Assembly: GCA_030605475.1 (NCBI GenBank)
Contig: JAUWIG010000011.1
Coordinates: forward strand, 1 to 64,000
Direction of reading: 5' to 3'
DNA length: 64,000 nucleotides
From: Planctomycetota bacterium
GTDB lineage: Bacteria > Planctomycetota > Phycisphaerae > Sedimentisphaerales > Anaerobacaceae
Part shown: piece by piece, positions 22,309-27,659 of the stretch
Position numbering within the stretch: the stretch's first letter is position 1
How the letters are laid out: every line of letters starts with the position of its first letter
Position numbers and translations under genes: made by a program
Notes under the pieces: model-generated
Seen by the model: the letters and a program-made list of their open reading frames with translations, nothing else
The model's database searches: none
Told to the model about the DNA's origin: nothing

Positions 22309-25026
22309 ATGGATAAGCAGTCAAATCATACGCCAGACAACGATAAGCTGCGCGCCAGCGAGCAGCAACTCAAAGCTATCAACCAGCAGCTCAGAGCTGC
22401 CAACCAGCAGTTACAGGCCAGCCAACAGCAGCTCAAGGCCGCCAACCAGCAGCTTGGGGCCAGTAATCAGCAACTAAGAGCAGCCGAAAAAGAGCTTCGC
22501 AAAAGCAGGCGACGGTACAAAACGATGTTTGATAGCACGATTAACGCCATAGCGGTTTATGAGGTTGTCGATAATGGAAATGATTTTGTTTTTAGAGATT
22601 TTAATCCGTCCGCGGAGAGGATAGAGAAGATAAAAAAAGGAGATTTGCTCGGCAAAAGCGTTCTCGAGGTACTTCCAGGAGTTGAGGAATTCGGCCTTTT
22701 TGATGTGTTTCAGGGGGTATGGAAGAGCGGCAAAGCTGAGCATTACTCTGAGACCATACACAAAGATGGGCGGATTACCGGCTGGCGAGAAAATTATGTG
22801 TTTAAGCTGCCTTCCGGTGAGGTTGTTGCGGTTTATGAGGACATCACCGAGCGCAAACGGGCAGAAGAGGTACTGGCGGAGGAACACAATCTGCTGCGCA
22901 GTTTGATAGACAACCTGCCGGATTCCATATATATCAAAGACACCCGAAGCCGATTTGTTATCGGTAACATTGAGGTTGCGCATCGCGTGGGTGTGACATC
23001 GCCGGATGAGTTCATCGGCAAGACGGACCACGACTTTTACCCAGAGGAGCTGGCATCGAAATATTATGCTGATGAGCAGGAGGTCATTCGGTCGGGCCGG
23101 CCGCTGGTTAGTCGAGAAGAACAGGTCGTAAACCAGACCACGGGCGAGACAATATGGAATTTAACCACTAAGGTCCCCTGGCGGGATAGTCATGGAAAGA
23201 TAGTGGGGGTTATGGGCATTGGCCGCAATATCACCGAGCGCAAACAGGCCGAGGAGGCGCTCGAAGCCGCCAACCAGCAATTGCAGGCCAGTGAGCAACA
23301 GCTCAGAGCCGCTAACCAGCAGTTGGAAGCGGCCAATCAGCAGTTACGCTCCAACGAGCAGCAGTTCAAAGCCACCAACCAGCAGTTGAATGCGACCAAT
23401 CAACAATTACGCGCCAGTGAGCAGCAGCTCAAAGCCGCTCACCAACAGTTGCAGGCGAGCGAGCAACAACTAAAAGCTGCGAACCAGCAACTTGAAGCGG
23501 CCAATCAACAGTTACGCGCCAGCGAAAAACAACTAAGAGAAGAGAGAGAGAAGGCACAGAAATATCTTGATGTTGCCGGAACTATGATGGTTGTTATCGA
23601 CCCCGACCAGAAAGTTACCCTTATTAACAAGAGGGGCTGTGAGATTTTGGGATATAAGCAAGAAGAGATTCTGGGCCGGAACTGGTTTGACAATTTCGTA
23701 CCGAAGAGTGTCCGGGAAAAAATGAGAGCAGTGTTCCAGCAGTCGATGGCGGGAGAAATACAGTTGATAGAATACAATGAGAGGCCGGTTTTAACCAAGA
23801 GCGGCCAAGAAAGGATTATCGTCTGGCATAATGCGATTCTTACAGATGAGGACGGTAATGTTGTCGACCTTCTTGCTTCGGGGACAGACATCACCGAGCG
23901 CAAGCGGGCGGAGGAGAAGCTGGCGCGTTCCGAGGCCATCTACCGAAAAACCGTGGAGAACGCCGGTGGCGTGCCTTACCAGGTACGCTTGTCCGATGGT
24001 AGATATGATTTCATGGGTCCTGGGATAGAGAAACTGGTCGGTATTGCGGCGGAGAAATTGACGCAAGAAATCTTTAACGGGTTGATAAAGGAGATGATTC
24101 CTGCCGACCCGAGCGCCCCACGTGACATGGCGGCATACCACGAGACAGTTGCCAGTGGCAAGAGAAGTCGTCATCAGGTGGACCTTCGCATCCGCACCCC
24201 AAATGGTGAGGTGAAATGGCTCAGTGACAGCTCTTTTCCTGTCAGGGACGAGAAGACAGGCGAGATAGTTTTTAGTATGGGCATTGCCCAAGATATCACC
24301 GAGCGCAAGAAGGCGGAGAAAAAGCTTCTTGACTATCAGAAGCAGCTTAAGTCTCTGGCTTCGGAATTGTCACTTACCGAGGAGCGTGAAAGGCGCCGCA
24401 TCGCCACAGAGCTGCACGACCGAATCAGCCAGTCTCTGGTCATTTCCAAGGTCAAGTTGGAATTGCTGCGCGAATCCGCACCTTCCGGTGACTTTGCCAG
24501 GGCCCTGGGGGAGGTCTGTAGCTCGCTGGACCAGACGATTCGGAACACGAGGTTGTTGACATTCGACCTCAGCTCTCCTATACTCTATGAACTGGGTTTT
24601 GAGGCGGCTGTGGCCGAGTGGCTTACTGAGCAAATTCAGGAAAAGTACGGTATTGAATCTGAGTTTGAGGACGATGGGCAGCCCAAGCCTCTGGGTGATG
24701 ACATTCGCGTCCTTTTGTTCCGCGATGTGCGGGAGCTGCTCATTAATGTTGTTAAGCATGCGCACGCGCATAAAGTAAAGGTTTCTATCCGGAGGGTTGG
24801 TAGCGAGATACGCGTTAGTGTTGAAGATGACGGAGTGGGATTCGACCTTGCCGAGGTCGCGTCAATAGCGGCCCAAACAGGCGGGTTTGGGCTTTTTAGT
24901 ATTCGGGAGCGGTTGGAACAATTAGGAGGGCATCTTGAGCTTGAATCTAAGCTTGGTCACGGAACCAGGGTTACAATTATGGCGCCGCTTAAGGAAGGAA
25001 AGATTAACGATGGGGGACAAGAATAA
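22309..25026 (+). CDS. Cytoplasmic multi-PAS histidine kinase with two heptad-repeat arrays
   Basis: 905 residues without a membrane helix. Order: a seven-heptad coil (17-65), PAS1 (~66-185), PAS2 (~192-318), a 13-heptad coil (321-411), PAS3 (~412-535), PAS4 (~540-675), a HisKA_3 dimerisation helix and a HATPase_c domain (~780-900). Each PAS ends with the (D/N)ITERK(R/Q/K)AEE type linker. Phosphate-accepting His703 sits in RIATELHDRISQSL, the NarX/DegS type. The N-box is ELLINVVKHA and the G boxes are EDDGVGFD and GGFGLFSIRERLEQLGG. It likely signals to the NarL-type regulator at 27006. Its kinase core is close to that of the next kinase even at DNA level, so they are duplicates. The ligand is unknown. 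An AAGAGAGGGG ribosome site precedes the ATG. Confidence 0.9.
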   Translation: MDKQSNHTPDNDKLRASEQQLKAINQQLRAANQQLQASQQQLKAANQQLGASNQQLRAAEKELRKSRRRYKTMFDSTINAIAVYEVVDNGNDFVFRDFNPSAERIEKIKKGDLLGKSVLEVLPGVEEFGLFDVFQGVWKSGKAEHYSETIHKDGRITGWRENYVFKLPSGEVVAVYEDITERKRAEEVLAEEHNLLRSLIDNLPDSIYIKDTRSRFVIGNIEVAHRVGVTSPDEFIGKTDHDFYPEELASKYYADEQEVIRSGRPLVSREEQVVNQTTGETIWNLTTKVPWRDSHGKIVGVMGIGRNITERKQAEEALEAANQQLQASEQQLRAANQQLEAANQQLRSNEQQFKATNQQLNATNQQLRASEQQLKAAHQQLQASEQQLKAANQQLEAANQQLRASEKQLREEREKAQKYLDVAGTMMVVIDPDQKVTLINKRGCEILGYKQEEILGRNWFDNFVPKSVREKMRAVFQQSMAGEIQLIEYNERPVLTKSGQERIIVWHNAILTDEDGNVVDLLASGTDITERKRAEEKLARSEAIYRKTVENAGGVPYQVRLSDGRYDFMGPGIEKLVGIAAEKLTQEIFNGLIKEMIPADPSAPRDMAAYHETVASGKRSRHQVDLRIRTPNGEVKWLSDSSFPVRDEKTGEIVFSMGIAQDITERKKAEKKLLDYQKQLKSLASELSLTEERERRRIATELHDRISQSLVISKVKLELLRESAPSGDFARALGEVCSSLDQTIRNTRLLTFDLSSPILYELGFEAAVAEWLTEQIQEKYGIESEFEDDGQPKPLGDDIRVLLFRDVRELLINVVKHAHAHKVKVSIRRVGSEIRVSVEDDGVGFDLAEVASIAAQTGGFGLFSIRERLEQLGGHLELESKLGHGTRVTIMAPLKEGKINDGGQE
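22357..22503 (+). repeat. In-frame 21-bp tandem repeat, 7 units
   Basis: Seven exact heptads (SEQQLKA, INQQLRA, ANQQLQA ... AEKELRK) with no indels, coding a coiled coil at the N-terminus of the kinase. The unit consensus is (A/S)(N/E)QQL(K/R/Q)A. Confidence 0.9.
23269..23541 (+). repeat. In-frame 21-bp tandem repeat, 13 units
   Basis: Exactly 273 bases, 13 heptads from ANQQLQA to SEKQLRE, between PAS2 and PAS3. The same unit as in the N-terminal array, with higher-order similarity between units 1-3 and 9-12 suggesting block duplications. Confidence 0.9.
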
Positions 25027-25097
25027 GCGTAAGGATTTTATTGGGTGATTACCGTAGAATTATACGCCAAGGACTGCGTTATCTGTTTGAAAAGCAA
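25023..25097 (+). pseudogene. Remnant of a lost response-regulator start
   Basis: These 75 bases align without gaps to the first 25 codons of the regulator at 27006 (57 of 75 bases identical by my count). The frame would read ISVRILLGDYRRIIRQGLR against MSVRILLADDHGIIRQGLR. The ATG has become ATA and the acidic pair DD has become GD, so it cannot be a working receiver. The remnant overlaps the end of the first kinase just as the intact regulator overlaps the end of the second. After codon 25 the similarity stops. Confidence 0.82.
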
Positions 25098-27009: not shown

Positions 27010-27659
27010 GTGTGAGAATTTTATTAGCCGATGACCACGGAATTATACGCCAGGGCCTTCGTTCCCTGCTTGAGAAGCAATCTGACATGGAGGTAGTTGG
27101 TGAAGCCGAGGATGGGCGAAAAGCCTTTGAGCTTGTGCGGGAGCTCACTCCGGACGTAGCCATTATGGACATAACTATGCCAAACTTAAATGGAGTCGAT
27201 GCTACACGCCGGATTGTGGGCCAGTTTCCTAAAGTCAAGGTAATTGCTCTGTCAATACATTCCAATAGGCGGTTTGTGGCTGATATGCTCAGGGCCGGAG
27301 CGTCAGGCTACATACTGAAGGAATGTTTGTTCGATGAGCTCATCCGGGCCATACGTACCGTAGCTGTCGGCAGCATCTACCTTAGCCCACGGATAACCGG
27401 CGTGGTAGTTGACGACTACGTAGAGCGCTTGTTAACGACTGCATACTCACAGCCGACAATCCTTACAGATAGGGAGCACGAGGTGCTTCAACTCCTGGCT
27501 GAGGGCAAATCCATGAAACAGATTGCCTTAGAGCTGCATGTAAGCACCAAGACAATCGAGGCGAACCGTCGTCAAATCATGGAGAGGCTGGATATTCACA
27601 GTGTAGCCGAGCTGACCAAATATGCCGTCCGCGAAGGGCTGACCTCTCTCGAACCGTGA
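27006..27659 (+). CDS. NarL/FixJ-family response regulator
   Basis: 217 residues. The receiver domain (1-120) has the acidic pair Asp9-Asp10, phospho-acceptor Asp55 in VAIMDITMPNLNG, Ser/Thr in ALSIHS and Lys in GYILKE. The LuxR-type helix-turn-helix (~150-210) shows LTDREHEVLQLLAEGKSMKQIALELHVSTKTIEANR. Once phosphorylated it should dimerise and act on promoters. ATGA overlap with the second kinase gives translational coupling. As the other regulator copy is dead, both kinases probably converge on this one. No terminator is clear after it. Confidence 0.93.
   Translation: MSVRILLADDHGIIRQGLRSLLEKQSDMEVVGEAEDGRKAFELVRELTPDVAIMDITMPNLNGVDATRRIVGQFPKVKVIALSIHSNRRFVADMLRAGASGYILKECLFDELIRAIRTVAVGSIYLSPRITGVVVDDYVERLLTTAYSQPTILTDREHEVLQLLAEGKSMKQIALELHVSTKTIEANRRQIMERLDIHSVAELTKYAVREGLTSLEP

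Follow-up and report, generated by a model that had tools for sequence, protein, structure and literature searches.

Tandem histidine kinases with a common core, unlike sensors and a regulator relic at a conserved gene slot in a Planctomycetota family

In a 64,000-nucleotide stretch of contig JAUWIG010000011.1 from a Planctomycetota bacterium (the window), a CheD-like gene is followed by two histidine kinase genes, HK1 and HK2, and one response regulator gene, RR, in this order and on the same strand (Table 1). Both kinases are of the HisKA_3 type; PF07730 and PF02518 score above their cutoffs in both proteins, and the histidine of the ELHDR motif, the N box and the G boxes are intact in the alignment of both. 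RR is a NarL/FixJ-type regulator (PF00072 and PF00196) in which the DD, IMD and LK motifs are present in the alignment. The two sensors are unlike, as the initial annotation had proposed. HK1 carries four PAS stretches and a long coiled coil in addition to its HisKA_3 and HATPase_c domains, and HK2 carries a periplasmic binding-protein-like domain, a class assignment that depends on a match to PF04392 (ABC_sub_bind) just over the cutoff (26.4 bits; cutoff 25.9). A sequence search of the HK2 sensor against solved structures gave no match. The coiled coil of HK1 is encoded by 21-bp (7-aa) repeats at 22352-22486 and 23285-23543, and the genome contains a similar repeat array in a hybrid kinase gene on contig C22; the arrays in both genes suggest that the length of the linker may change.

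Table 1. Genes, duplicated segments and slot markers at the kinase-regulator locus (positions in the window)
Feature	Position	Strand	Remarks
gatB, slot marker	19429..20895	+	named by eye from sequence; conserved position
Cupin gene, slot marker	20929..21324	+	conserved position
CheD-like gene, upstream of HK1	21767..22252	+	at the slot in G022, G098 and G099 too
HK1, cytosolic PAS/coiled-coil histidine kinase, 905 aa	22309..25026	+	HisKA_3 + HATPase_c
HK1 coiled-coil/PAS module	23266..24321	+	85% DNA identity to HisKA hybrid kinase, contig C22
Duplicated segment, copy 1 (kinase core and regulator stub)	24310..25106	+	constant-offset homology
Regulator relic (stub), 28 codons corresponding to RR codons 1-28	25023..25106	+	ATG to ATA; acidic pair broken
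AAGGA inside the stub, 9 nt before GTG 25045	25031..25035	+	weak, sequence-based inference
HK2, second histidine kinase, ORF open from GTG 25045 (candidate start)	25045..27009	+	HisKA_3 + HATPase_c
HK2 membrane/periplasmic binding-protein-like sensor	25193..26288	+	73% DNA identity to kinase sensor, contig C28
Duplicated segment, copy 2 (kinase core and RR codons 1-28)	26293..27089	+	constant-offset homology
RR, intact NarL-type response regulator	27006..27659	+	Response_reg + GerE; start overlaps HK2 stop (ATGA)
plsY-like gene, downstream slot marker	28168..28830	-	named by eye from sequence; conserved position

We aligned the ends of the two kinase genes at the DNA level. The HK1 core (24310-25022) matched the HK2 core at a constant offset of 1,983 bp with 593 of 713 positions identical (83.2%), corresponding to 80% identity of the proteins, and the homology began exactly at the linker in front of the core (24310 and 26293). 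The kinase halves had been described as nearly the same DNA. They are homologous, but the description overstates their similarity: dS of the cores was 0.59 (95% interval 0.44-0.77), indicating that the duplication is not recent, and a dN/dS of 0.13-0.26 indicates that both cores have been held under selection.

Both kinases are chimeric, with sensor and core joined at the same linker (R-K-x-A-E-x-K-L-L). Each sensor half has a relative elsewhere in the same genome, the coiled-coil/PAS module of HK1 in the C22 hybrid kinase, whose phospho-acceptor domain comes from another family (HisKA), and the HK2 sensor in a kinase on contig C28 (identities in Table 1). Both similarities end where the core shared by HK1 and HK2 begins. 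Homologous cores, non-homologous sensors and a breakpoint in the linker mark the pair as duplicates with swapped sensors. Synonymous divergence was alike in the three comparisons (two sensor modules and the cores; 0.43, 0.57 and 0.59), which fits an exchange of sensors around the time of duplication, dS giving neither the order of the events nor their direction.

Directly behind the HK1 core lies a remnant of a regulator gene. Positions 25023-25097 align without gaps to the first 25 codons of RR (57 of 75 identical, 76%), which is the extent originally assigned to it; we found that the homology continues to 25106, giving 28 codons (63 of 84 identical) that include an EKQP motif typical of the regulators of relatives. 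Over the 153 bp following 25097, identity was at background (30.7%). The next-best 84-mer in the window scored 40 on the plus strand and 42 on the minus strand, and the local alignment score of the stub was 64, compared with at most 26 in 300 shuffles. A single G/A difference (25025 versus 27008) removes the start codon and at the same time makes the stop codon of HK1 TAA instead of TGA; the annotated change from ATG to ATA is thus correct, as is the placement of the stub in the same overlap position as the intact regulator. The change in the acidic pair had been read as DD to GD, which is a misregister: LADDH has become LGDYR, with A changed to G, the first D kept, the second D changed to Y and H changed to R. 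With 28 codons, no ATG, a broken acidic pair and a frame that stops after 38 codons, the stub does not qualify as a functional response regulator, and in none of the relatives examined was it found as a short gene.

We polarised the differences between stub and RR against 16 regulators. Twelve changes were specific to the stub (3, 5 and 4 at the first, second and third codon positions), three were specific to RR (0/0/3) and six were ambiguous. The changes in the stub fit non-coding decay, at least lately. Differences at first and second codon positions (9 of 56) were below the expectation for neutral decay since the duplication, with P between 0.03 and 0.19 depending on dS; in the first 25 codons they numbered 6 of 50 (P 0.005-0.06).

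The open frame of HK2 begins at GTG 25045, inside the stub but in a different frame. This GTG depends on a stub-specific change (codon 8), and one base of the AAGGA in front of it is likewise specific to the stub (codon 4). Among the kinds of SD-like 5-mer scanned, AAGGA was the sole one to precede a candidate start in the HK2 frame. Since such a 5-mer precedes a chance start codon in 3.5% of cases and there are about eight candidate starts, the argument for GTG 25045 is weak. The coding log-odds over 25045-25164 were -1.7 (coding mean 2.6, off-frame mean -4.2). We propose, tentatively and with some doubt, that translation of HK2 now starts in the defunct 5' remnant of the lost regulator.

The slot, located after gatB/cupin (often with cheD) or before plsY, was surveyed in 19 genomes from 14 genera of the family. 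A single kinase with a complete regulator, the ancestral arrangement, occupies it in 15 genomes from 11 genera. The other states are a kinase without regulator (two genomes of one genus), two kinases and a regulator (HK-HK-RR) in G008, and HK-stub-HK-RR in the window. A search of 89 family genomes gave no other core more than 73% identical to HK1, compared with 80% for HK2. As no core in these genomes is closer than HK2 and relatives carry a single pair, the duplication most likely occurred on the lineage of the window.

Regulator loss is found elsewhere in the family. In G001 and G078 the regulator has been lost, and no remnant of it was detectable after their kinases. In G071, an orphan kinase with a MEDS sensor (L103, 3817-5223, minus strand) has behind it a relic of a regulator from the same family, with its frame broken. 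This kinase groups with the HK1/HK2 pair (support 95/86 and 99/98); the branching among HK1, HK2 and the G071 kinase had support of 51/78, with AU p values of 0.22 and 0.37, so that it may or may not fall inside the pair. Having a broken regulator relic of its own, it suggests that regulator loss was repeated or is older than it appears.

The sensors at the slot differ widely. The shortest slot kinase has 402 aa and no recognised sensor domain, the longest has 2,058 aa with two GAF and many PAS domains, and some carry MEDS sensors. In the slot kinases of G098 and G099 (L106:3536-5107 and L107:3330-5657), Pfam domains are absent from part or all of the long N-terminal region. The gatB/cupin-plsY slot is a hot spot of sensor turnover in which core and regulator are mostly kept, across at least 14 genera.

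We compared the regions of HK1 and HK2 that bear on their output. The 11 residues after the phospho-accepting histidine are identical in both, and their HisKA_3 regions agree at 51 of 65 positions, compared with 31 and 29 of 65 in the comparisons of HK1 and HK2 with the third family kinase of the genome, on contig C41. In a genome that is ~91% complete, so that a further partner regulator could be missing, the sole unpaired NarL-type regulator found (C41:21672) has its acceptor Asp replaced by Glu. Given the identical residues behind the histidine, the similarity of the HisKA_3 regions and the lack of a usable unpaired regulator in the ~91% complete assembly, HK1 and HK2 most likely share RR as their output. 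The orphan regulator itself (C41:21672-22313; L038:6673-7326; motif IVMEIAMP) adjoins a polysaccharide deacetylase gene and, with Glu in place of Asp, probably acts without phosphorylation.

In the NarX/NarQ-NarL system, two HisKA_3 kinases act on one NarL-type regulator. The locus described here resembles that system in the class of its kinases and of its regulator and in the many-to-one wiring that we propose. In contrast to it, the sensors are different, the kinases are adjacent and the wiring is predicted from sequence; moreover, scores stayed well under the curated NCBIfam equivalog cut-offs of the nitrate system for NarQ (79.9 and 88.7 bits versus 553), NarX (62.4 and 68 versus 578) and NarL (138.7 versus 250). 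All NCBIfam matches, among them NarQ, UhpB, MctS and MctR, were under their cutoffs.

The probable history of the locus, which we hold with reasonable confidence, is a lineage-specific tandem duplication with unrelated sensors joined at the linker and the inner regulator subsequently lost, so that both kinases feed one regulator. A conserved module of kinase core and NarL-type regulator would have been copied in tandem on the lineage of the window. One core would have been joined to the coiled-coil/PAS half related to the C22 hybrid kinase, giving HK1, and the other to the periplasmic binding-protein-like half related to the C28 kinase, giving HK2. The inner regulator copy would then have lost its start codon and everything past codon 28, and both kinases most likely phosphorylate the sole remaining regulator, HK1 upon a cytosolic signal and HK2 upon a periplasmic one.

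Tandem duplication with loss of the inner regulator, as the initial annotation had suggested, is supported by the single pair at the slot of relatives and by HK1 and HK2 being mutually closest by identity; the copy of the regulator may have been complete or partial. It is possible, if on balance unlikely, that duplication or gene conversion placed no more than the kinase core and the initial ~84 bp of the regulator on a PAS kinase, in which case the stub was dead on arrival and a full inner regulator never existed. The abrupt end of copy 1 at codon 28 would be explained in this way, as would the lack of codon-position bias among the stub-derived changes and the identity of the PAS half of HK1 to C22 (85%), which exceeds that between the two cores (83%). 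The shortage of first- and second-position differences in the stub is, however, a weak sign of earlier coding, and whole tandem pairs exist in the family: G089 carries an intact HK-RR-HK-RR array (L098, 646-6078), which is how such a locus would be expected to look before an inner regulator is lost.

The G008 tandem occupies the same slot in the same gene order, and gene conversion throughout the core could hide a common origin. Inheritance of both kinases from an ancestor shared with G008 and later homogenisation is nevertheless very improbable. The ortholog pairings were rejected (HK1 with the upstream G008 kinase, AU p 0.004; HK2 with the downstream one, AU p 0.025), so the G008 tandem looks like an independent event, and no regulator relic was detectable in G008. 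A candidate HTH remnant of a regulator between the G008 kinases was dropped, as its score lay within those of shuffles. We also consider it rather improbable that HK1 has become an orphan, with a distant regulator other than RR as its target or with no signalling activity left. Family kinases without an adjacent regulator do occur in G070, G071, G098, G099 and G101, and nothing in cis forces HK1 to pair with RR. However, HK1 is conserved with its catalytic motifs present and is by raw counts the slower-changing copy (derived changes by codon position 3/5/12, versus 12/8/16 in HK2), its recognition helix matches that of HK2, and a search of the ~91% complete genome gave no unpaired NarL-type regulator that retains the acceptor Asp.

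Two-component systems are known to evolve through duplicates that diverge and shuffle domains, frequently not long after they arise (PMC4603909, PMC3040137). Lineage-specific expansion of histidine kinases with shuffling of input domains was described by Alm, Huang and Arkin (2006), as cited in PMC3040137 and PMC4603909. As reported in these citing papers, duplicate kinases acquire a new sensor soon after duplication and the core is unchanged, as we propose here; compared with the expansions so reported, the copies described here stay in tandem, a regulator relic is readable and relatives of both sensors are present in the same genome. In the duplicated EnvZ-OmpR paralogs of alpha-proteobacteria, likewise derived from a co-operonic kinase-regulator pair, both regulators survive and are insulated by a few substitutions (PMC9208753). 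In contrast, one regulator has been lost here, and insulation would therefore not be needed.

Duplication, sensor swapping and regulator loss are already known in two-component evolution, and the locus is a clear new example of them. The rewiring of signalling can be read here with unusual clarity, at a single gene slot where core and regulator mostly stay and sensors, kinase number and the presence of the regulator vary. Duplications that leave two surviving regulators, which must then be insulated, are a natural counterpart for comparison.
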